In this document: in pieces, positions 3,260 through 52,396 of the stretch
How positions within the stretch are numbered: the stretch's first letter is position 1
How the letters are laid out: each line of letters begins with the position of its first letter
From: Spartobacteria bacterium
Lineage (GTDB): Bacteria; Verrucomicrobiota; Verrucomicrobiia; Chthoniobacterales; UBA10450
Length of the DNA stretch: 52,396 nucleotides
Assembly (NCBI GenBank): GCA_003167555.1
Contig: PMSN01000016.1
Span: forward strand, 1-52,396
Direction: 5' to 3'
Made by a program: the position numbers and the translations under genes
The notes under the pieces: model-generated
What the model was told of the DNA's origin: nothing
What the model saw: the letters and a program-made list of their open reading frames with translations, nothing else
Databases searched by the model: none

Positions 3260-3372
3260 GAAAACGTCCAACGCCGAACGCCAAACGTCCAACGCCGAAT
3301 TTCAGAAAAAATATCGAAGGGCGCTTTCTTAGTTCGGCGTTGGGCGTTCGGCGTTGGGCGTTCGGCGTTTTC
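3260..3372. repeat. inverted repeat between pcnB and glgA
   Basis: Two 40-bp arms (3260-3299 and 3333-3372), each built from repeated ACGCCGAACG-like units, face each other around a 33-bp spacer and could form a long hairpin. The right arm lies inside the 3' end of the upstream gene and encodes its last residues ([12 protein letters not shown]). The left arm lies just upstream of the glgA start. The position would let it modulate readthrough or stabilise the mRNA, but no T-run typical of a terminator follows it. Confidence 0.7.
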
Positions 3373-6448: not shown

Positions 6449-9310
6449 TTAATCCTGTAAATCCTGTCTGCTTTTCTTTTCGACCACCGCCTCGCAGCGA
6501 TCGCACAATTCCGGATGCGCCGCGCTCACGCCGACAGCCGGCCGATGCCGCCAGCAACGGGCACATTTTTTGGAGGCCGTCTTCGAAATCAACGCGACCG
6601 GTTCTTTCCCCGGTTCGATTTTCAGATCGCTTAGGATGAAGAACTCCTCGATCTCTTCGTGCGGGATGCCGGCGATGACGTCTTGTTCGCAGCGCAAAAG
6701 GACAGCCGCCTCGAGCGCATTGCCGATCAACTTTTCCTGGCGCGCGCGCTCGACCGCCTGGCCGATGACAGCGCGCAAAGCCAGGAGCTGGGTCACCTGA
6801 CTGCTAGCCGTCGGGTTTCGAAATTCATCGTTCGGCTCGGGGAAAACTTCGAGATGAACGGAGCTGGCGCGGCCGAGAAAACTCCACGCTTCTTCCGCGG
6901 TGAAAACGGCAATGGGCGCGAGCAGCCGGCAGAGCGCATCGAAGATTCGATGCATCGCAGCTTGTGTCGCGCGTCTACGCAGCGAATCGGGCGCATCGCA
7001 ATACAGGCGGTCTTTTGTGATGTCGACATACAGGCTGCTCAGATCGACGGCGCAGAATTGGTTAAGCGTGTGATAAACCTTGTGGAATTCGTAGGCGGCG
7101 TAGGCAGCGCGGCAATCCGCGATCACGTTTTCGAGCCGATCCAGGATCCAGCGATCGACCAACGTCTCCGTCATTCCGAGCGCAGTCGAGGAACCCCGTG
7201 ACACGTCGGGCGACGCTCCACGGGGTCCCTCGACTTCGCTCCGCTGCGCTCGGGATGACGAATCGTAATCGGACAAGTTCCCGAGCAGAATTCGCAGCGT
7301 GTTCCGGATGCGCCGGTAGGTGTCGCCCAAGCGCGTGAACATTTCCTCCGAGAACGGAACATCATCCGTGTAATTGATGCTGCTCACCCAGAGCCGCACG
7401 ATATCCGCCCCGTGCTTCGCCACGAAATGGCCGGCATCCATCGGCTTGCTGTAGCTGCTCGATTTCGAAATTTTCTTGCCGTCGACATCTACGACGAATC
7501 CGTGCGTGACGCAGGCTTTGTAAGGAGCGCGATTGTGCAGCGCTACGCTCGTCATGAGCGACGATTGGAACCAGCCGCGATGCTGATCGGTCGCCTCGAG
7601 ATACATGTCGGCCGGATCGCGCAACGCGGGGTTCGTGGCCAGGACAGCGTAATGCGAGACGCCAGAGTCGATCCAGACGTCGATCGTGTCGTTGCGATGG
7701 CGCGTGCCCTCCGGCAACCCGAGCTCAAGCGCGAGCGCGGCGTCATCCAGTTCGAACCAGACGTTTGAGCCGCGTTGCGCAACGAGATCGGCGAGTTTCC
7801 GAATCCACTTCGGATCGAGAATCGCTTCGGCTTCCGCCGAATAAAAAACTGGCAGGGGCACGCCCCAACTCCGCTGGCGCGAGATCACCCAATCGGGCCG
7901 CGATTCCACCGTGCCGGAGATGCGGTTCTCGCCCCAGGGCGGAATCCAACGCACATCCTTGATCGCCGCGAGCGCATTTGCGCGGAGAGCATCGATGCGG
8001 ATGAAAAATTGTTCGACCGCGCGGAAGATGATCGGCGTCTTCGAGCGCCAGCAATACGGATACGAATGTTGGTAGGCTGCTGCGCTGATGAGCATCCCCT
8101 TCTCGCGTAACAGCGCCACGATGTCGGCATTCGCATCGAAAACGTATTTGCCGGTGAGATTCGGCAAACCGGCTTCATCCGTGTAGCGGCCGTGATCGTC
8201 CACCGGCGACAGAATCTGCAGCCCGTGCTTCCGGCCTAACGAGTAGTCGTCCTCGCCATGGCCGGGCGCGATGTGGACGGCGCCGGTGCCGGTATCCATC
8301 GTGACGAAATCGGCGGCGAAGATGGCGGAGGTGCGCGCCAGGAATGGATGTTGCGCGGCAAGGCCTTCCAGCTTGCTGCCGGGAAACGAACTGATCGGTT
8401 CGCCGGTCGGTTCGAAACCGGTGGCGGCGCAAAACTTATCCACCAGAGAAGCGGCGAGCACGAGTGTTTCGGAATGTGGGAGGGGCCTTAGTGCCCCGAC
8501 TTCTGTAGCCTCACCGCTCAGTCGGGGCGCTGAGGCCCCTCCCACATTTTTGAACTCCCGCGCGACATAAAGTTCCTTCGGATGGACCGCGATCGCGAGA
8601 TTTGCCGGCAATGTCCACGGCGTCGTCGTCCAGATGGCGATGCTCGCTTTCCCCGCGAGTTCGCCACTGACGATCGGAAACTTCACGTAAACAGTCGTGT
8701 CTTCGCGATCCTGGTATTCCACTTCCGCTTCCGCGAGCGCGGTCTGCGCGCCGGTGCTCCAGAAGACCGGCTTCATGCTTTCGTAAACGAGACCCTTCTC
8801 GACGAAGACCGCGAAGGCGCGGAGGATTTCCGCTTCGTAAGCCGGATCGAGCGTGAGATACGGATGCTCCCAATCGCCGAAGACGCCGAGCCTCTTGAAT
8901 TGCTCGCGCTGGATGTCGACAAATTTGCGCGCGAACGCTTCCGATTTCTGGCGCACCTCGAGCGGCGAAAGTCCGCGCGATTCTTTCACGACTTTGTATT
9001 CGATCGGCAAGCCGTGGCAATCCCAGCCTGGCACGTACGGCGCGCGAAAGCCGGCCATCGTTTTCGATTTCACCACGAGATCTTTCAGAATTTTGTTGAG
9101 CGCGGTGCCCATGTGGACGTCGCCGTTCGCGAAGGGCGGTCCGTCGTGCAGGACGAACAACTCGGCGCCGGCACGCGCGGCCTGGATCTGCTCGTAGAGG
9201 CCGGCCTCATTCCATTTCTTGAGCATCTCCGGCTCGCGCGTGGCGAGGTTTGCCTTCATCGGAAAATCCGTTTTCGGCAGGTTGAGAGTGTCCTTGTAAT
9301 TCTGGCTCAT
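6449..9310 (-). CDS. ileS: isoleucyl-tRNA synthetase carrying two in-frame palindromic insertions
   Basis: A 953-residue class I synthetase that charges tRNA-Ile and edits Val. The active-site HIGH motif reads HMGT (residues 66-69, in [13 protein letters not shown]), and KMSKS reads KISKS near residue 612. The C-terminal zinc ribbon CARCWRH...CDRC is intact. ATG 9310 gives [18 protein letters not shown], the normal N-terminus; an in-frame start 42 bp upstream adds an unlike leader. Two stretches are foreign to the family: about residues 254-279 in the editing domain (palindrome 8473-8548) and about 684-713 near the start of the anticodon-binding region (palindrome 7170-7259). The tail RQDLQD also comes from repeat-like DNA. 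All keep the frame, so the gene looks functional. Confidence 0.95.
7170..7259. repeat. palindromic element family A, copy 1 (inside ileS)
   Basis: A 90-bp imperfect palindrome that starts with GTCATTCCGAGCGCAG and ends with the near-complement CTGCGCTCGGGATGAC. It encodes about 30 residues of IleRS ([14 protein letters not shown]...STALGMTE) that have no counterpart in the family. Its length is a multiple of three. The same element occurs at 16742-16832 between genes and at 49924-50014 inside dnaE2. Confidence 0.85.
8473..8548. repeat. palindromic element family B (inside ileS)
   Basis: A 76-bp inverted repeat whose arms read AATGTGGGAGGGGCCT and its near-complement AGGCCCCTCCCACATT. It encodes about 25 residues ([20 protein letters not shown]) between EFKN and [14 protein letters not shown] of the IleRS editing domain, where the family normally runs straight through. 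It is unrelated to family A. Only one copy was found in the window. Confidence 0.75.
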
Positions 9311-9393
9311 GCGCGGAGCGGCGAGGCTAACACCCAGCGCGCGCCAGCGCAACGGACCGAGCCGCGCGGAGAAAAGTTAGAAGCAGAGAAGAA

Positions 9394-9413
9394 GGGCGGT
9401 TTGGAAACCGCCC
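9394..9413. repeat. short perfect hairpin in the divergent ileS / lipoprotein spacer
   Basis: A 20-bp perfect inverted repeat (GGGCGGTTT, GG, AAACCGCCC) in the 125-bp region between the divergent ileS and lipoprotein genes. No T-run follows it. It could be another genomic repeat unit or an operator; the sequence alone does not say. Confidence 0.45.
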
Positions 9414-9435
9414 CTCCTTGATCTAACAATTACGT

Positions 9436-13029: not shown

Positions 13030-13101
13030 AAACGCTCATCCTTTTTTTTCAGGACCAACGGTTCGATGTTTTCGCGAATAACGCGGGAGGCGCAGTCTCC
13101 C

Positions 13102-13327
13102 CGCACAGCGCCGAAGGCGCGCAGGATTACAGCCCGGAGCGGAGCGCAGCGGAGCTCCGGGATATCGCACCCTCCGTGTCAAACCCCTTTCAAGGGGTGA
13201 CGGAAACCGTGCCGCGCACAGCGCTGGAGGCGCGCAGGATTACAGCCCGGAGCGAAGCGCAGCGAAGCTCCGGGATTTCATTCCCTCTCCATCGAACCCC
13301 TTCAAGGGGTGACGGAATTTGTGTCCC
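13102..13327. repeat. tandem repeat family D (two units of about 113 bp)
   Basis: The addB-addA gap (13030-13540, 511 bp) contains no convincing gene. It holds two direct copies of a unit starting CGCACAGCGC (13102 and 13215). Each unit contains GGCGCGCAGGATTACAGC, a GC-rich palindrome beginning CCCGGAGCG and ending GCTCCGGG, and a second small hairpin (AACCCCTTTCAAGGGGT). A degenerate third palindrome (CCCGGAGTT ... CACTCCGGG) lies at about 13401-13430, and a CCCTACGGGCG block follows. An open frame that crosses the gap is only repeat DNA read through. Confidence 0.75.
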
Positions 13328-16741: not shown

Positions 16742-16832
16742 GTCATCCCCGAGCGAAGTCGAGGGATCCCGTTGCACGTCGCGCGACTTTCGCCGGGGTC
16801 CCTCGACTCCGCTTCGCTCCGCTCGGGATGAC
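16742..16832. repeat. palindromic element family A, copy 2 (intergenic)
   Basis: A 91-bp palindrome filling most of the gap between the convergent addA and ino1 genes. It starts GTCATCCCCGAGCGAAG and ends CTCCGCTCGGGATGAC. It directly abuts the ino1 stop codon. Its place between convergent genes would suit a bidirectional terminator role, although copies inside ileS and dnaE2 argue against that as the main function. Confidence 0.85.
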
Positions 16833-21972: not shown

Positions 21973-23216
21973 CCCCGCCTCTTTACATTGCGATCCGCTT
22001 CCTCAGCCATCGCAAGCGCGCGTTTATCCTGAGCCTGAGCGGCGTCGTTTTCGGCGTAGCCATTTTCATTTGCACGCAGGCGCAAACTCAGGGGTTCGCG
22101 AAAAATTTTATCGACTCGACGCTGGGCAGTAATGGCGCGCTGGTACTGCGCTCACGTTTCCAAACCGGCGCCACCGGATTGATGGTCCCGCCGAAAACCT
22201 CAGCGGGCAACGCCGCCGGCCTGCCGCGCCGCCATTTCCTCAGCGGCATCACGAACGCGTCCGAGATCATGCGCATCAGCCGTCAATTTGCGGACGTGGC
22301 CGCCTGCTCGCCGGTCCTGCGCGGCACCCTCAGCGCGCGCGCCGGTTTCGAGAACGCAACCGTCGATCTCTTCGGCATCGATCCCGTCTACCATCTCCAA
22401 ACCACCAATCTCGCGCAGCAAATAATCGCGGGAACGTTCGACGAATTTCGAAACAACCCGAACTCCGTCATCGTCGGTTCGCGTCTCGCCGAAGCGCTCG
22501 AAGTCGGCGCGGGCGATGCCATTCAATTACTTTCGCCCGGCGGCGAATATCGGCGCTTCACCGTGGCAGCCATCGCGCGGAGCGGCGTGGGCATAGTCGA
22601 TGCCGGCCGCGTTTATTCTCACGTGCGGGTCGCGCAGACCCTTTTGCGCAAACCTTTTTCTGCTTCCATGATCGTCTACAAATTGCGCGATCCCGAGCGC
22701 GCGCCGGCGCTGGCCCGCGAGTTTGAAACGCTGTTCCAACACGAATCGCAAAGCTGGCAGGACCGCGAGGAAGCGAATCTTCAGCTCTTTGTTACTTTGC
22801 GCATGTCGGCCGCGATCACGGTCTCGTTGATCATCCTCCTGGCCGGTTTCGGGATCTTCAACGTGCTCACCATGTCGGTGCTCGCGAAGATCAAGGAGAT
22901 CGCCATTCTGCGCTCAATGGGCTACCGGGCCCGCGACATCTCCTCGATCTTCCTCTGGCAGGGCGCGATGATCGCGGCCGCCGGTTCGATCATCGGCTGC
23001 ATTGTCGGCGCGCTCTTTACCTGGGGCGTCTCGCACATCCCGATTCAGGTCCGCGGCCTGGTTTACGCCAATCACTTTCTAGTCACCTGGGACTGGCGGC
23101 ATTATTTCTGGGCAACGCTGCTGGCCGTCATCGCGGTTTTCATCGCGAGCTATGTGCCGGCGCGGCGGGCCGCGTCGCTCGCGCCAGTCGCCACCTTGCG
23201 CGGATCGAGCGCGTAA
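21969..23216 (+). CDS. FtsX/MacB/LolE-type ABC transporter permease
   Basis: A 415-residue permease with one N-terminal membrane helix (FILSLSGVVFGVAIFICTQA), a periplasmic MacB-core domain of about 220 residues, and three C-terminal helices with the family signature IKEIAILRSMGYRARDISSI and PARRAASLAPVATLRG. It belongs to mechanotransmission-type ABC systems that move lipoproteins, lipids or peptides. The GTG start overlaps the adaptor stop (GTGA). The cognate ATPase is not next to it, as expected, but at 31573, beyond a 8.3-kb accessory block. A truncated paralogue lies at 24598-25539. Confidence 0.88.
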   Translation: MTPPLYIAIRFLSHRKRAFILSLSGVVFGVAIFICTQAQTQGFAKNFIDSTLGSNGALVLRSRFQTGATGLMVPPKTSAGNAAGLPRRHFLSGITNASEIMRISRQFADVAACSPVLRGTLSARAGFENATVDLFGIDPVYHLQTTNLAQQIIAGTFDEFRNNPNSVIVGSRLAEALEVGAGDAIQLLSPGGEYRRFTVAAIARSGVGIVDAGRVYSHVRVAQTLLRKPFSASMIVYKLRDPERAPALAREFETLFQHESQSWQDREEANLQLFVTLRMSAAITVSLIILLAGFGIFNVLTMSVLAKIKEIAILRSMGYRARDISSIFLWQGAMIAAAGSIIGCIVGALFTWGVSHIPIQVRGLVYANHFLVTWDWRHYFWATLLAVIAVFIASYVPARRAASLAPVATLRGSSA

Positions 23217-24597: not shown

Positions 24598-25539
24598 CGC
24601 AGCCGGCAATTCGCCGATGTCGCCGCCTGCTCGGCGGTTTTGCGCGGCACGGTCAGCGCGCGCGCGGGCTTCGATAATGCCACCGTCGATCTTTTCGGGA
24701 TCGACGCCACGTCGCACCTCCAGACGACCAACCTTGCCCAGCAACTGACCGCCGGGAGCCTTGACGAATTCCGGAACAACCCGAACGCCATCATCATCGG
24801 TTCACGTCTGGCCGAATTCCTCCAGGTCGAACCCGGCGATGCTCTCCAGTTGCTTTCGCCCGGCGGTGAGTACCGGCGTTTCGCCATCGACGCCATCGCG
24901 CGCAACGGGGTCGGGGTTGTCGATGCGGTCCGGGTTTATTGCCACGTCCGCGTCGCGCAAACTCTGCTGCGGAAACCGTTCGCTGCCTCGATGATCGTTT
25001 ACAAACTGCGCGATCTGGAGCGCGCGCCGACCGTCGCCCGCGCGTTCGAAAATCTATTTCAACACGAAGCCCAGAGCTGGCAGGACCGCGAAGAGGCCAA
25101 CCTTCAGCTCTTCATGACCGTGCGCCTTTCCGCCGCCATCACGGTCTCGCTCATAATCCTCCTGGCCGGCTTCGGAATCTTTAACGTCCTCACCATGTCC
25201 GTCCTCTCAAAGATCAAGGAGATCGCGATCCTGCGCTCGATGGGTTATCGCGCCCGCGACATCTCGGCCATTTTTCTCTGGCAAGGCGCCATGATCGCCA
25301 CGGCGGGCTCGGTGATCGGGTGCATCGCCGGGGCCGCTTTCACGTTGGGCGTTTCCAAAATCCCCATCCAGGTCCGGGCATCTTGGTACGCAAACCATTT
25401 TCTGGTGGCGTGGAACTGGCAACATTACCTGTGGGCCACGCTCCTGGCGGTCATCGCCGTCTTCATCGCCAGCTACGTCCCCGCTCGGCGCGCGGCGCAG
25501 CTTGCGCCGGTCGCCACTCTTCGTGGTTCTAGCGCCTAG
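24598..25539 (+). pseudogene. truncated paralogue of the FtsX-type ABC permease
   Basis: From SRQFADVAACS to the stop, this matches residues from about 100 to the end of the permease at 21969 almost residue for residue (for example IKEIAILRSMGYRARDISAI, PARRAAQLAPVATLRGSSA). The first 100 residues, including the first membrane helix, are missing. The frame stays open upstream to 24427, but those codons are antisense to the flippase remnant and to the end of the mannosyltransferase gene, so the apparent 370-residue protein would have an unrelated N-terminus. Many silent differences from the intact copy indicate an old paralogue rather than a recent duplication. Confidence 0.8.
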
Positions 25540-27981: not shown

Positions 27982-28058
27982 ATTCTCGCTTTGATCTAGC
28001 AGGCGATTAGCTCGCGAGCTCCGCCCGAGTCAACTTAGGCGGCGCAGCCTGAGGCGTG

Positions 28059-28146
28059 GGTGGGTCTCGCGCTCCGCCGCGCGATGCTTCATTGTCCCGG
28101 CTTCGCGGGCATTCTGTCATCAAGCGACGGAGCGCTCAATCCACCT
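28059..28146. repeat. palindromic element family E, copy 1
   Basis: An 88-bp imperfect palindrome starting GGTGGGTCTCGCGCTCCG and ending CGGAGCGCTCAATCCACC, with the central block TGTCCCGGCTTCG. It matches the reverse complement of the element at 35361-35454. It lies in the 219-bp gap between a glycosyltransferase gene and the ATPase remnant; the rest of that gap shows nothing else. Confidence 0.75.
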
Positions 28147-28200
28147 GATCTGCACCGAAAAAGTTTCACTGCCGCTCTGAGTGTGGCTACCTTAAAATTC

Positions 28201-28368
28201 ATGGAGGCCGAAGTTTCGCTCAGCTGCGAGGGAATCCAGCGCTACCTCGGCGAGGAAGACTCACGCGTGCACGCCTTGCGCGGGGTGTCGCTCCAGCTCG
28301 AGCGCGGCACGGTGCACGCGGCCGTTGGCCCCTCGGGCGCTCATCGCAAATGCCCTATGCGAAGCTAG
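28201..28368 (+). pseudogene. 5' fragment of a LolD/MacB-type ABC ATPase
   Basis: It encodes SLSCEGIQRYLGEEDSRVHA and continues to AVGPSG, then breaks off in the middle of the Walker A motif and runs into unrelated codons (AHRKCPMRS) and a stop. The sequence and about 40 bp upstream (TTTCACTGCCG ... GCTACCTTAAAATTC) match the intact ATPase gene at 31573. It is a truncated duplicate cut at the P-loop, next to the 3' end of the flippase gene on the other strand. It cannot bind ATP. Confidence 0.85.
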
Positions 28369-31510: not shown

Positions 31511-31572
31511 GAGGCCGGGAGACGAAGCAAAAAGGTTTCACTGCCGTCGGGAGTGAAGCTACCTTAAAATTC

Positions 31573-32277
31573 ATGGTCGCCGAAGTTTCGCTCAGTTGCG
31601 AAGGCATCGAACGTTATCTGGGCGAGGAAGATTCGCGCGTGCATGCCTTGCGCGGGGTCACGCTCCAACTCGATCGCGGCACCGTCCACGCCGTGGTCGG
31701 TCCGTCCGGTTGCGGCAAGAGCACGCTCCTCTACATCCTCGGCTTGCTCGATCACGCCGATAGCGGCTGGGTCACGATCGAGGCCGAAGCGGTCTCGCAT
31801 TTGCGCGACGATGCGCTGGCGAAAAAACGGAACGAACTGCTCGGCTTCATTTTTCAATTCCATTTTCTCCTGGAGGATTTTACCGCCCAGGAAAATGTCA
31901 TGATCCCGATGCGACGTCTCGCCGTCTTGAGCGAACCCGAGATGCTGGAGCGGGCCGCGTATCTGCTCGATGAAGTGGGGCTGGGAAGCAAATTGAAAAG
32001 GCCGAGCCGGCATCTTTCCGGCGGCGAACAACAGCGCGTGGCCGTCGCCCGCGCGCTCGCGAACAACCCGAGTGTGATTCTGGCCGATGAGCCAACGGGA
32101 AATCTCGACAGCGCAAATTCCCGGCGCGCTTTCGAGTTATTGCAACGCATAGTGCAGGAGGAGCGCAAAGCTCTCCTGCTCGTGACGCACAATCCGGAGA
32201 TCGCGGAAGCCTGCGACTGGATTCACGAGATGCAGGACGGCTTGATCGTCGGCAGCCATCCGCGCGGCCGCAGATGA
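31573..32277 (+). CDS. LolD/MacB-type ABC transporter ATPase
   Basis: A 234-residue ATPase with Walker A GPSGCGKST, Q-loop FIFQFHFLLEDF, signature LSGGEQQRVAVARAL, Walker B ILADEPTGNLDS and H-loop LVTHNP. It is the energy source for an FtsX-type permease of the MacB/LolE group, most likely the one encoded at 21969. About 40 bp upstream of its ATG is conserved in front of the truncated copy at 28201, so that block probably carries the promoter; no clear Shine-Dalgarno sequence precedes the ATG. The N-terminal extension VAEVSLSCEGIERYLGEEDS is specific to this gene pair. Confidence 0.92.
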   Translation: MVAEVSLSCEGIERYLGEEDSRVHALRGVTLQLDRGTVHAVVGPSGCGKSTLLYILGLLDHADSGWVTIEAEAVSHLRDDALAKKRNELLGFIFQFHFLLEDFTAQENVMIPMRRLAVLSEPEMLERAAYLLDEVGLGSKLKRPSRHLSGGEQQRVAVARALANNPSVILADEPTGNLDSANSRRAFELLQRIVQEERKALLLVTHNPEIAEACDWIHEMQDGLIVGSHPRGRR

Positions 32278-34640: not shown

Positions 34641-35363
34641 GTGGGCAGCATCACGGACGCGGTCATCTTAATGGCGGGAACCGGATCACGTCTCCGCGGC
34701 TCCGCGGACACGATCGCGAAACCGCTCATTCCGATCGCCGGCCGTCCGCTGATTTCCCACGCGATCGAATCGTTCGACAAGGTTGGCGTGAAGCGATTGC
34801 ACGCGGTAGTCGGCCCGAACGGCGACGAGCTGGCCGCGGCCGTGGCGCCGCTGCTTCCCGCGCACATGCAGTTTCATCCCATCGGAAATCTGAACTGGCA
34901 GAAGCAAAACGGCGTCTCGCTCCTCACCGCCGCGGGAAAGGTGAACGCACCGTTTTTCCTCGCGATGGGCGATCACCTCTTTGAATCGTCGATTCTCGAC
35001 TCGCTCATCGCGCACGCAGACCTGACGCGATTGAACCTGGCCGTCGATAAGAAGATCAAAGCGATCTTCGATTTGGACGACGCGATGAAAGTTCGGACGG
35101 AAGGCAATCTGATCGTTGCGATCGGCAAAAAGCTCGAAAACTACAACGCGATCGACACGGGAATCTTTCTCTGTCCCGAGATCATGTTCGAGTATTTGCG
35201 CCGCGTCTTGAAAGATGGCGATTGCAGCCTGGCCGACGGCGTGCGGCTCATGGCGGAGGAAGGAAACGCTCTCGCCGTCGATATTGGCGACGCCTGGTGG
35301 CAGGACGTGGACACGCCCGAAATGCTGCAGCGCGCCGAAGCGGAAGCGAAGCGTTTGCTCTAG
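34641..35363 (+). CDS. sugar/inositol-phosphate nucleotidyltransferase (IPCT-like)
   Basis: A 240-residue nucleotidyltransferase with ILMAGTGSRLRGS, KPLIPIAGRPLI, FFLAMGDHLFE and QDVDTPEML. The middle part (LNLAVDKKIKAIFDLDDAMK, VRTEGNLIVAIGKKL, NAIDTGIF) recalls the inositol-1-phosphate cytidylyltransferase domain of the IPCT/DIPPS enzymes of Archaeoglobus and Thermotoga, from memory rather than alignment. It would make CDP-inositol (or another NDP-alcohol) for the CDP-alcohol phosphotransferases that follow. GTG 34641 is two bases after the SDR stop. The stop TAG lies inside the end of a family E palindrome. Confidence 0.7.
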   Translation: MGSITDAVILMAGTGSRLRGSADTIAKPLIPIAGRPLISHAIESFDKVGVKRLHAVVGPNGDELAAAVAPLLPAHMQFHPIGNLNWQKQNGVSLLTAAGKVNAPFFLAMGDHLFESSILDSLIAHADLTRLNLAVDKKIKAIFDLDDAMKVRTEGNLIVAIGKKLENYNAIDTGIFLCPEIMFEYLRRVLKDGDCSLADGVRLMAEEGNALAVDIGDAWWQDVDTPEMLQRAEAEAKRLL

Positions 35364-35454
35364 GTGGATCGCGCGCTCCGTCGCGCGATGACGAGGAAAT
35401 GCCGCCGAAGCCGGGACAGATAAACATCGAGCGGCGGAGCGCTCGATCCACCTA
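35361..35454. repeat. palindromic element family E, copy 2, carrying stop codons of both flanking genes
   Basis: A 94-bp palindrome fills the gap between two convergent genes. It begins TAGGTGGATCGCGCGCTCC and ends with the near-complement GGAGCGCTCGATCCACCTA. Its first three bases are the TAG of the plus-strand nucleotidyltransferase gene, and its last three are the TAG of the minus-strand phosphotransferase gene. It may act as a bidirectional terminator-like hairpin. Confidence 0.85.
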
Positions 35455-36627
35455 GGCGCGGCCACGCGAGAAACTTTTCAACGCGAGCGCCAGACTGATC
35501 GCGGCGACGGCGAAGAGCAGATGTAAAATCAAACTGGGCAGGCCGAGCGCAGCCAGAAAAACAAAACCGAGAACGGCAACATCGCGCTTCGTTAACTGGA
35601 TCAGCCAGGACGTGGACTTCTCGCCGAGCCGCAGGATTCCGGAACGCTCGACCAATTCACGATGGCGCGGATAGAGCGCGCCGCCTAACGACACTGCTGC
35701 GTTTTCGCCCGGCTTCTGTCTCGCGAGCAGGAACTCGTTCGCTCCAATCAAGAGCGCGGCGAGGATTCCTTCCACGACGTAGAACCAGGCGAGACCGTGG
35801 AAATTCGAAAGACCAAAGCCCAAGCCGAGGACCAAAAGAATGTTACTCGCGACGTCGCAGAGATCGTCGAGCCGGCGCCCGCGCTCGCTTTCGAGAAACT
35901 TCGCGCGCGCGATCTCGCCGTCGCAACCATCGAGCACGCTGAAGAATTGATAGAGCACGAGACCCCAGAAGAACGACCAGTAGGTTCCTTGCAAAAGAAT
36001 AAATGACGCCACGACGGGAATCGGGCCGATGAGGAGCGCCCAGGCGTTCGGAGTCGTGGGGAAGCGCAGGAGAAGCCGCGTCACGGCCCGCGAGATGGGA
36101 CGATTCAAATAACGCGAAACAAAACCGTCCTGCGATTTTCCGCTTCCGCGCAAAAACAGTTTCTCGATCTCATCAATCTCGTTGCCGTCGCGGATGTAAT
36201 TCCACTTTCCTTCCAAGGATGGAGGAAACGATTCGAGGGAGTGCGCACAACTTTCCCACCGCTCTTTCTCTCCGTGCGAGGCGACCATTTCCAGAGGAGT
36301 CGGCGCGACTTCGAGGAATTGCGCAAGCGCATTGCGCCAGAGAAAGAGCCGCGTGCTCAGCAGCAGGTCGAACGGTTCCGACCCGGCGTAATTCGTAAAC
36401 GCAACCATAGCGAGCCGCGCATGCGTCGGGAACCATCGTTGCGATTGATCGAGGGCCGGGCTCCACAGAACGCAGACGACGAGCGGCGCGGTCTGTTTGC
36501 TCTGGACGGCAAATTCGTTGAGCGAAAGCGCGAGCCGATCGAGTTGGCGCAAGCCCGCGACCAGCCAATCCGCCGACTCGTCGGCCAAAACCAGAACGCG
36601 CCGCAGCGTGCGAGCTTCAGCGTTCAC
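35452..36627 (-). CDS. CDP-alcohol phosphotransferase with degenerate N-terminal nucleotidyltransferase domain
   Basis: A 391-residue protein. The C-terminal half is a membrane CDP-alcohol phosphotransferase with the complete signature DGEIARAKFLESERGRRLDD plus LCD (all four conserved Asp, near residues 228-251) and several helices. The N-terminal 160 residues (RRVLVLADESADWLVAGLRQ onward) look like a worn nucleotidyltransferase fold. The linker GSGKSQDGFVSRYLNRPIS recalls fused IPCT/DIPPS enzymes that join CDP-inositol to an alcohol phosphate. GTG 36627 overlaps the stop of the upstream GNAT gene (GTGA), so the two are coupled. The acceptor is unknown. Confidence 0.75.
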   Translation of the reverse strand: MNAEARTLRRVLVLADESADWLVAGLRQLDRLALSLNEFAVQSKQTAPLVVCVLWSPALDQSQRWFPTHARLAMVAFTNYAGSEPFDLLLSTRLFLWRNALAQFLEVAPTPLEMVASHGEKERWESCAHSLESFPPSLEGKWNYIRDGNEIDEIEKLFLRGSGKSQDGFVSRYLNRPISRAVTRLLLRFPTTPNAWALLIGPIPVVASFILLQGTYWSFFWGLVLYQFFSVLDGCDGEIARAKFLESERGRRLDDLCDVASNILLVLGLGFGLSNFHGLAWFYVVEGILAALLIGANEFLLARQKPGENAAVSLGGALYPRHRELVERSGILRLGEKSTSWLIQLTKRDVAVLGFVFLAALGLPSLILHLLFAVAAISLALALKSFSRGRA

Positions 36628-49490: not shown

Positions 49491-52396
49491 TCAATGAAAA
49501 TCGTGCGAGTCAGTGCCGACTAGTTGCTCGTGGACGAGCGGCCTGATCTCACGCGCTTTGATCAGCACGACGTTATCGGAATTTTGCACGGTTCCTTTGA
49601 TGACGAGAAATGGCTCTTCCGTGATCAAGAGCCGCATCCGCTCGAATAAATCCGGCGTCACAATCGCATTCGAAACGCCGGTCTCGTCTTCGAGGCTGAT
49701 AAAAACGAAACCCTTTGCCGTGCCGGGTCGCTGACGGCAGATCACGTTGCCAGCGATCTCGACGGTGGCGCCATGACGCGCGGAGATGAGATCAGCCGCT
49801 CGCCAGATATTCGGCAAATGCGACCGGAGCAATTTCATCGGATGCGGCCCTGTCGTTAGGTTCATCGCATCGTAATCCGCTTTCACGCGCTCGGGTAGCG
49901 TCATTGGAAGAAGGGGGGATGCCGTCATCCCGAGCGAAGTCGAGGGATCCCGTGGCTGAATCGAGCGTATTGCGACGGGGTCTCTCGACTTCGCTTCGCT
50001 CCGCTCGGGATGACGGCTCTCTTGATACGAGTCAAACAACGGCTCGGGCGGTTGCTCTTCCACTCGCCACATCGCAGCGCGACGATGTTCTGAAAAACAA
50101 TTGAGCGCGCCCAATTCCGCCAGCGTCCGCAGCTCTTCTTTCGAAAACCCTACGCGCTGCTTGAAATCATCGAGCGATAGAAACGCGCCTCGCTCACGTT
50201 CTTCGATCAGCTTTTCGCCGTGCTCTTTCCGCAACCCGTTCACCACGCAAAATCCCAATCGCACCGTGTCATTGGAAACAACCGTGCAACGCCAATCCGA
50301 TTCCCGCACACAAACCGGCTGGACGCGAAGCCCGTGGCGCTGCGCATCGGCGACAACGGTGGCCGGCGTATAAAATCCCATCGGCTGATTGTTCAACAAA
50401 CTCGCGTAAAACTCCGGAGCCCGATGCACTTTCAGGTAAGCGCTCCCATAGGCGAGGATCGCGAAACTGATCGCGTGCGATTCGGGAAATCCATAGAGCG
50501 CAAATGAACTGATCGCTTGCAGGATTTTCTCGATCACTTCCGGCGTGACGTTGTTGCGCATCATTCCGGCGCGCAATTTTACGCTCACTTTCTCCATCCG
50601 TTCCTGCGAGCGATGAAAACTGAGCGCCCGCCGCAGTTCCTCCGCTTCATCACCGGAAAAATCCGCCATGATCATGGCGATCTTGAGCATCTGTTCCTGG
50701 AAGAGCGGCACCCCAAGCGTGCGGCCCAGGACCGGCTCGAGACGCGGATCGAAATACGTGACCCTTTCGCGGCCGGCCCGGCGCGCGAGATAAGGATGCA
50801 CCATGTCGCCCTGGATCGGACCGGGCCGAATGATCGCGACCTCGATCACGACATCGTAAAAACATTTTGGCTTCATCCGCGGGAGCGTGGCCATCTGGGC
50901 GCGGCTCTCGATTTGAAAAACGCCGATCGTGTCGGCGTTCTGCATCATCTCGTAGGTCGGCGCGTCATCCGTCGGGATGTGGGCCAGATCGAGGGGCCGG
51001 CCGCGTTCGCGGCAAACCTCGAACGCATCCTGCATCACCGACATCATCCCGAGCCCGAGCAGGTCCACTTTCACGATGCCGAGATCTTCGCAATCGTCCT
51101 TGTCCCATTGCGCCACGACACGCCCCGGCATCGAGGCATTTTCCAACGGCACAAAGGAACTCAGTTTCCCCTGGCAAATGATCATGCCGCCCGAATGCTG
51201 GCCGAGATGCCGCGGCAATCCGTAAATGGATTGATAGAGCGAGATGAACGCCGGCATGCGCGGATGCGCTTTCGGCAAACCGGCCTGCTCGATCTGCGCC
51301 ATGAGATCGAGCGTGTGCGGGAAATCGCCGTTCCCAAAAAGATGCGAGAACCGATCTAATATATTAGACGACAGGTTGAGCGCTTTGCCGATCTCGCGCG
51401 CGGCGCTTCGCCCGCGATAGGTGATGACGTTCGCTGTCATGGCGGCGCCGTGCTTGCCGTAGCGCCGGTAAACTTCCTGGATGACGCTCTCGCGCCGATC
51501 GCCACTCGGCAGATCGAGATCGATATCGGGCCAGCCTTTGCGGCTTTCGCTGAGGAACCGCTCGAAGACGAGATTATTGCTGACCGGATCGACCGGCGTG
51601 ATCCCGAGGCAATAACAAACGGCGCTGTTCGCGGCGCTGCCGCGGCCTTGCACCATCACATTGTGTTCGCGGCAGAAATTAATGATGTCCCAGACGATCA
51701 AAAAATAACCGGAAAACCCGAGCTTTTGGATGAGACGCAATTCCTCCTCGAGTTTTTGTTTTACCGCGGTGCTGATCGAGGAGTAACGCTGTTGCGCGCC
51801 AAAGAGCGTGATCGTGCGCAGGAACGAATTCATGTCGTGTCCATCGGGGACAGGAAACGCCGGGAACTCGTAGCCGATGTTTTCGAGGGAAAATTCGAGG
51901 CGATCGGCGACGCGCGCCGTGTTGTCGATTGCATCGAGGCGATCGGGAAAAAGAGCGCGCATTTCGGCGTCGCTCTTCAAATGTCTTTCCGCGTTTTGGC
52001 TCAAGAGCTTGCCCGCCGCATCGAGATGGGTGTGTTCGCGGATGCAGGTGAAGACGTCGAGGACTTGCCGGCCGATCGGGCGCGCGTGCCGCACGCCATT
52101 CGTTGCGATAACCGGCAGGCAACATTGTTCCGCCAGATCGCAGAGGCGTTGATTGATCCGATCTTCGCCGCGCAGGAAATGGCGCTGAATCTCGACGCAG
52201 ACGTTGTCGCGACCGAAGACGTCGATAAGAGATTGCGCGCGCTCCGCGGAACTCTGGGGAGCGCAGGCTGCCAGCCTGCACCGTCCGGCAGCTTGCCGGA
52301 CGGAACGGTTGCTCTTGCGCGTGATTCCCAAAGATGTTTGCGGCAAGCTGCCGCAAACGGCAGGCTGGCAGCCTGCGCTCCCCAGAAGAGCGATCA
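49491..52396 (-). CDS. dnaE2: error-prone DNA polymerase DnaE2 with in-frame palindromic insertions, partial
   Basis: The last 967 residues of a C-family DNA polymerase; the PHP-domain start lies beyond the right edge. Catalytic acids are in WPDIDLDLPSGDRRE and GIVKVDLLGLGMM. The C-terminal OB-fold reads VICRQRPGTAKGFVFISLED, the variant of translesion DnaE2 rather than replicative DnaE. Two foreign stretches occur: near residue 12 of the visible part, encoded by palindrome 52253-52386, and about 175 residues before the C-terminus, encoded by palindrome 49924-50014. Both keep the frame. It should act in SOS-type mutagenesis, normally with ImuA/ImuB, which are not seen here. Confidence 0.9.
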   Translation of the reverse strand, partial: IALLGSAGCQPAVCGSLPQTSLGITRKSNRSVRQAAGRCRLAACAPQSSAERAQSLIDVFGRDNVCVEIQRHFLRGEDRINQRLCDLAEQCCLPVIATNGVRHARPIGRQVLDVFTCIREHTHLDAAGKLLSQNAERHLKSDAEMRALFPDRLDAIDNTARVADRLEFSLENIGYEFPAFPVPDGHDMNSFLRTITLFGAQQRYSSISTAVKQKLEEELRLIQKLGFSGYFLIVWDIINFCREHNVMVQGRGSAANSAVCYCLGITPVDPVSNNLVFERFLSESRKGWPDIDLDLPSGDRRESVIQEVYRRYGKHGAAMTANVITYRGRSAAREIGKALNLSSNILDRFSHLFGNGDFPHTLDLMAQIEQAGLPKAHPRMPAFISLYQSIYGLPRHLGQHSGGMIICQGKLSSFVPLENASMPGRVVAQWDKDDCEDLGIVKVDLLGLGMMSVMQDAFEVCRERGRPLDLAHIPTDDAPTYEMMQNADTIGVFQIESRAQMATLPRMKPKCFYDVVIEVAIIRPGPIQGDMVHPYLARRAGRERVTYFDPRLEPVLGRTLGVPLFQEQMLKIAMIMADFSGDEAEELRRALSFHRSQERMEKVSVKLRAGMMRNNVTPEVIEKILQAISSFALYGFPESHAISFAILAYGSAYLKVHRAPEFYASLLNNQPMGFYTPATVVADAQRHGLRVQPVCVRESDWRCTVVSNDTVRLGFCVVNGLRKEHGEKLIEERERGAFLSLDDFKQRVGFSKEELRTLAELGALNCFSEHRRAAMWRVEEQPPEPLFDSYQESRHPERSEAKSRDPVAIRSIQPRDPSTSLGMTASPLLPMTLPERVKADYDAMNLTTGPHPMKLLRSHLPNIWRAADLISARHGATVEIAGNVICRQRPGTAKGFVFISLEDETGVSNAIVTPDLFERMRLLITEEPFLVIKGTVQNSDNVVLIKAREIRPLVHEQLVGTDSHDFH
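49924..50014. repeat. palindromic element family A, copy 3 (inside dnaE2)
   Basis: A 91-bp copy of the same palindrome as at 7170 and 16742, starting GTCATCCCGAGCGAAGTC and ending CGCTCCGCTCGGGATGAC. It encodes HPERSEAKSRDPVAIRSIQP and then RDPSTSLGMT in DnaE2, between the helix-hairpin-helix region and the OB-fold, where variable linkers are tolerated. Confidence 0.85.
52253..52386. repeat. nested palindromic element family C (inside dnaE2)
   Basis: A 134-bp element with outer arms TCTGGGGAGCGCAGGCTGCC and the complementary GGCAGCCTGCGCTCCCCAGA. It encloses two smaller palindromes, CCGTCCGGCAGCTTGCCGG (52281-52302) and TTTGCGGCAAGCTGCCGCAA (52337-52357). It is read through in the dnaE2 frame as AGCQPAVCGSLPQT and VRQAAGRCRLAACAPQSS without a stop. 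Unrelated to families A and B. Confidence 0.85.

Follow-up and report, generated by a model that had tools for sequence, protein, structure and literature searches.

The closest described counterparts of the element presented here are the CGTC-tagged REPs (Di Nocera, De Gregorio and Rocco 2013, PMC3733652). According to the accessible parts of that account, these repeats end in CGTC or TGTC with an adjoining AT, form inverted dimers with outward-facing tags, lack an associated transposase gene and also occur inside genes, with published copies in dnaE2 and in tRNA synthetase genes; intragenic repeats of R. conorii are equated there with RPE-4 and RPE-6 and placed within the CGTC families. The same text reports intragenic GTAG REPs in O. 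terrae, a member of the Verrucomicrobia, with genes hit twice, and recB genes of two Xanthomonas species that carry different REPs at about the same site. Rickettsia palindromic elements (RPEs), in the sections of PMC10969869 and PMC3733652 available to us, are short palindromes of about 150 nucleotides that lie in frame within conserved genes whose functions are unrelated, and the REPINs of the REPIN/RAYT system (Bertels and Rainey 2011, PMC3116915) appear in the accessible text as dispersed, non-autonomous doublets forming one hairpin.

The window, that is, the whole stretch of DNA analysed, comprises 52,396 nucleotides and represents an entire contig (C29) of the draft genome of a Spartobacteria bacterium of the Chthoniobacterales (4,202,510 bases in 29 contigs; hereafter G000). 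On its minus strand, at positions 6449-9310, it contains ileS, the gene for isoleucine--tRNA ligase (IleRS), with 953 open codons, a score of 831.6 bits against the TIGR00392 profile (cut-off 621.4) and the expected IleRS domains in a profile search. Within this gene, a palindrome of the form GTCAT...ATGAC fills exactly positions 7170-7259, corresponding to 90 nucleotides and a 30-residue peptide; when the neighbouring C and G are added (7169-7260), both of its ends read CGTC outward, as in an inverted pair with its tags on the outside. RNA folding of positions 7165-7264 yielded z-scores of -7.80 for the minus and -8.31 for the plus strand, with none of 200 shuffles being equally stable. A preceding sequence-only reading, which had described a 90-bp palindrome inserted into ileS with neither frame change nor stop, is borne out by these data. 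Its estimate of about 30 added residues is correct for the 30 in-frame codons, but not for the net gain: delimited by the motifs RILLGNL and TLVDRW, the loop comprises 39 residues with the element compared to 18 in the four short-loop alleles of the genus, a gain of only 21, because the allele with the element lacks about 27 nucleotides of the other allele's loop.

This CGTC-like element is dispersed through the genome. In G000, 68 BLAST matches merged to 47 places and, as one copy was split, to 46 copies; including 10 further places listed with another query, there are at least 56 element places, from copy searches in which part of the first-look candidates was scored. Four of them lie within 13 kb of one locus (L082; G000:C14:5000-23000). 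The outward dimer GTCAT...ATGAC was found in 41 of the 47 places, and the 82 ends of these copies have T (39), C (26), A (12) or G (5) before GTC, in keeping with CGTC or TGTC tags, although the copies were chosen by GTCAT...ATGAC and the agreement is partly by construction; likewise, the AT at the stem start, present at both ends in these 41 places, equals the selection rule. In its end types, the outward inverted dimers, the intragenic copies and the lack of an associated transposase gene, and apparently in the adjoining AT, the element resembles the CGTC REPs as far as the accessible text describes them. It differs in that the hosts named there belong to the Proteobacteria, Chlorobi, Bacteroidetes, Spirochaetes and Thermotogae and not to the Verrucomicrobia, and in that its single-unit stem and tail do not clearly fit the lengths stated: when three typed halves were folded, their outer stems measured 4 to 6 bp, and tails were CCC, compared to a stem of 8-9 bp, a loop of 4-5 and a CCA tail in the published unit.

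Three of the 47 places, in ileS, dnaE2 and tgt, were bordered left and right by coding-like sequence in a shared frame, as judged by a home-made codon log-odds score without a gene finder and with places of weak or short flanks, such as L090 and L082 at 3440, left uncounted. Both other copies named in the sequence-only reading proved to be real: the intergenic one near 16742 (16749-16832, with GTCAT starting at about 16743), whose place is occupied in G001 only among the relatives, and the one at 49924-50014, which reads in frame (RHPERSEAKSRDP...STSLGMT) within dnaE2, the gene for error-prone DNA polymerase (49491-52346, minus strand; its 5' part is missing at the contig end). Also upheld was the suggested likeness to RPEs, since a short palindrome stands in frame in conserved genes of differing function and is patchily distributed in relatives. 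By contrast, the statement that its sequence is different from that of RPEs was too strong, given the CGTC-type ends and the placement of RPE-4 and RPE-6 in CGTC families in the available text of PMC3733652. Compared by description only, and within what the accessible sections state, the differences from RPEs lie in the host phylum, in the length of 90 rather than about 150 nucleotides and in the encoded product: two reading frames are used and there is no single conserved peptide, with an 11-residue peptide in ileS as opposed to RHPERSxAKSRDP in dnaE2 and tgt. We also considered whether the element avoids stop codons, an idea that was rejected; the 41 copies had 3.17 open frames each compared to 3.84 in dinucleotide shuffles, and all 100 shuffle sets had as many open frames or more, so that the element is not specially stop-free.

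Rather than being a fixed part of the protein in all relatives, the 30 residues are confined to two of the eight genus genomes and to six of 49 readable loops in the family. The latter stem from 83 genomes searched, 59 of which gave a strong ileS match and 50 of which had their loci examined. In the genus, the loop carries the CGTC-like element in G000 and G001 and another palindrome in G004 and G007, and is short in four genomes; aligning IleRS from sister strains, as had been proposed, does reveal genes lacking the element (six of eight), but these alleles carry other repeats, the short ones included. No clean empty site was found among the alleles compared at ileS and at the 16742 site, and the proposed inspection of the element ends showed no target-site duplication, as would mark a MITE, at either site, the compared alleles being diverged or holding other repeats. 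In the family, 38 of the 49 loops could be assigned a repeat motif from five classes, leaving 11 with none; the tally is 16 for GGAANNCAGGAA, 11 GTAG-like, six CGTC-like, two each for CCAAGGAG and CTCCCC, and one for CTCCCC together with a GTAG-like motif. Of 980 control windows, matched in length and taken from other parts of these genes, 58 contained any of these motifs, the five classes having been defined by hand once the loops had been seen. In a motif-free test, 15 of 49 loops folded with z < -3, compared to two of 147 control windows; among more distant relatives, this was the case for three of 24 loops (L165, L167 and L172). One ileS loop, L142, contains two repeat kinds. Dispersal was tested for two of the five classes, CGTC-like and GGAANNCAGGAA, while copies of CCAAGGAG and of one GTAG-like palindrome are found again next to transposase genes and, for CTCCCC, the palindrome itself was found in two genomes and half of it in a third. 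Upstream of ileS in the window, at about 9391-9422, we noticed a sequence, GGGCGGTTTGGAAACCGCCCCTCCTTG, that by eye resembles the CCAAGGAG palindrome of the G004 and G007 loops.

The short loop, ESGKQESRK, was initially taken for the empty ancestral allele. A strict regular expression for its repeat gave no match in 370,935 bases of G000, G001 and window sequence, but this interpretation was withdrawn, as a looser pattern, GAATCNGGAANNCAGGAANSCAGGAA with at most two mismatches, matches a dispersed family repeat. It is present in 71 of 83 family genomes, the reversed control being absent from all 83, with 49 places in G042, 27 in G006, 23 in G005, nine in G001, six in G002, five in G000 and four in G003, some of the counted places being ileS itself; several of those listed form inverted pairs tens of bases apart.

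The CP1 loop of ileS, two linkers of dnaE2 and a loop of tgt vary in the same way as this ileS loop. The CP1 loop of G000 contains, at about 8465-8556, a second in-frame palindrome (TGTGGGAGGGGCC...GGCCCCTCCCACA) that is unrelated to the CGTC-like element and folds with z -8.22; such a GTGG palindrome occurs in G000, G004 and G032, while the inserts in L120, L125, L128 and L139 are different. In G002 (L035), a longer and diverged stretch of the CP1 domain, with up to 38 extra residues, is unlike its genus relatives. At the C-terminal linker of dnaE2, the CGTC-like element is found in G000, G001 and G004, and other sequences in the remaining five genus genomes; that of G002 resembles the palindrome in the N-terminal part of dnaE2 of G000, G001 and G002 (52253-52386 in the window, a pair), which is missing in G003, the G004 sequence being cut there. 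In tgt, the loop before FGIVQGG holds the CGTC-like element in G000 and G004 and other sequences in six genomes. Inverted repeats of the AACGTCCAACGCC type at 3263-3369 of the window could, by eye, encode the NVQRPTSNVQR peptides that G001, G002 and G003 have in this loop.

Like REPINs, as the accessible text describes them, the CGTC-like element is a dispersed, non-autonomous doublet forming one hairpin, and five other palindrome families of these genomes flank Y1-transposase genes. Y1_Tnp matches numbered five in G000 and 51 in the genus, and 31 loci were examined. On both sides of such genes we found the CP1 palindrome (L064, L242), the CCAAGGAG palindrome (L243, L063), the dnaE2 N-terminal palindrome (L065), a GTAG-like palindrome (L252) and the repeat of window positions 13099-13196 (L061, L230, L231). 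The last is a 98-nucleotide palindromic repeat present in the window as two tandem copies, 83% alike, at 13099-13309. Unlike these, the CGTC-like element flanked none of the 31 loci on both sides, L247 having a single copy some 0.8 kb away to one side; this agrees with the statement, in the available text of PMC3733652, that CGTC repeats come without a transposase. Inverted pairs of CGTC-like copies on contigs C23 and C19 of G000 offer a lead for an intervening transposase.

We consider it likely that the palindrome in ileS is one copy of a dispersed, REP-dimer-like repeat, and that the IleRS loop has been recurrently colonised and overwritten by active small palindromes. An AlphaFold2 model of IleRS, based on 39 sequences, had a mean pLDDT of 84.9, with values below 50 at residues 259-275 and 687-712, the two inserts, and likewise at further short stretches, while the helices at 655-678 and 717-738 were of high pLDDT. 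Both inserts are thus predicted to be disordered, and the loop bearing the element would directly precede the anticodon-binding domain, which begins at residue 719 (Pfam). A palindromic repeat with CGTC-type ends would have spread through part of this lineage of Chthoniobacterales, one copy settling in this disordered loop, where it may have survived because the frame was kept, no stop arose in that frame and only a tolerant surface loop was altered. The same loop would then be colonised and overwritten by the small palindromic repeats that happen to be active in a given genome. Copies probably arrive by transposition, several of the other families being moved by the Y1 transposase whose gene the same palindrome flanks, and the CGTC-like family by some enzyme, no candidate having been found among the 31 Y1_Tnp loci of the genus. 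Selection would have removed most insertions inside genes, and the element-bearing IleRS presumably works. As relatives carry unrelated repeats there, this loop, part of an enzyme that a soil bacterium needs for protein synthesis, looks like a spot where small selfish DNAs land time and again.

Copies of the CGTC-like element itself may have landed independently or may in part share descent. On an ileS tree built without the loop columns (71 rows, a quick tree with 16 of 68 inner branches open), parsimony required six changes for the six CGTC-like alleles and 26 for all states. We nevertheless do not claim six independent landings, as the copies of G071, G075 and G077, all of the genus g14, are mutually nearest (0.87-0.90), which suggests, from their sequences, that three of the six descend from one insertion. 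Descent and loss may also explain part of the pattern, as G000 has further copies in common with both G001 and G004. An account resting entirely on descent and loss, in which CGTC-like copies at ileS, dnaE2 and intergenic sites date back to the ancestor of the genus and were lost or overwritten in some lineages, with little repeated landing, is conceivable but doubtful. It gains from the copies common to G000 and G001, at ileS, dnaE2, the 16742 site and L079 (the last also in G004). However, the carriers form no clade: in a tree built from ileS, dnaE2 and tgt, G001 groups with G005 (98/98) and G000 with G002, G003 and G004 (88/90), while two genus searches, one of them at E 1e-8, found no element match in G002, G003 and G005, so that this account would call for massive loss, more than once. 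(G006 gave none at E 1e-8, yet one place, on C100, in the other listing.) Moreover, paralogues in G000 itself are nearer to its ileS copy (up to 0.933) than is the copy of G001 (0.90), albeit by only 3 of 90 bases, and the L086 site is filled in G000 only.

A bolder version of recurrent colonisation, to which we give little credence at present, would make some loops of essential proteins self-perpetuating docking sites, where a landed hairpin attracts or templates the next and unrelated palindromes succeed one another, supplying disordered linkers. That the inserted loop was instead recruited for a function such as tRNA binding or regulation, with its sequence kept by selection, is very unlikely. 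All six CGTC-like ileS alleles do start in the same frame (SSR...) and remain open, even the enlarged one of L125, and the loop adjoins the anticodon-binding domain, but unrelated peptides fill it in relatives, it is predicted to be disordered, and dnaE2 and tgt read the element in another frame. Misassembly at repeats, which can mislead assemblers of draft genomes such as these, is scarcely credible as the origin of the element in ileS, because similar elements occupy this loop in six genomes and, in several that were assembled separately, stand between intact flanks, besides the intact frame over 953 codons and the like picture in other genes.

The class of event, REPs lying in frame within genes such as dnaE2 and those of tRNA synthetases, is already known, and recurrent colonisation extends it by several repeat families turning over in one loop of an essential enzyme. 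Within what the available text of PMC3733652 reports, the O. terrae and Xanthomonas recB cases differ from the present one, which comprises 49 readable alleles of one ileS loop with five motif classes, in addition to CP1, dnaE2 and tgt; a literature search, with subscription papers mostly outside its reach, returned no account of a single ileS loop in which unrelated REPs follow each other. Within one essential gene, the alleles offer a natural set of loops holding one repeat insertion, two, or a decaying one, on which REP movement, loop tolerance and the targeting of palindromes into palindromes can be tested by genome comparison. They also caution annotators against taking such peptides for conserved domains. 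Relatives of sharply different copy number, such as G001 with many copies and its sister G005 with no match, lend themselves to the hunt for the CGTC transposase. Elsewhere in the window, a 300-nucleotide direct repeat, 77% alike, lies inside neighbouring ORFs (22277-22576 and 24600-24899), and positions 28054-28337, 31530-31709 and 35360-35457 hold still other repeats, inverted ones among them, that are 77-90% alike.
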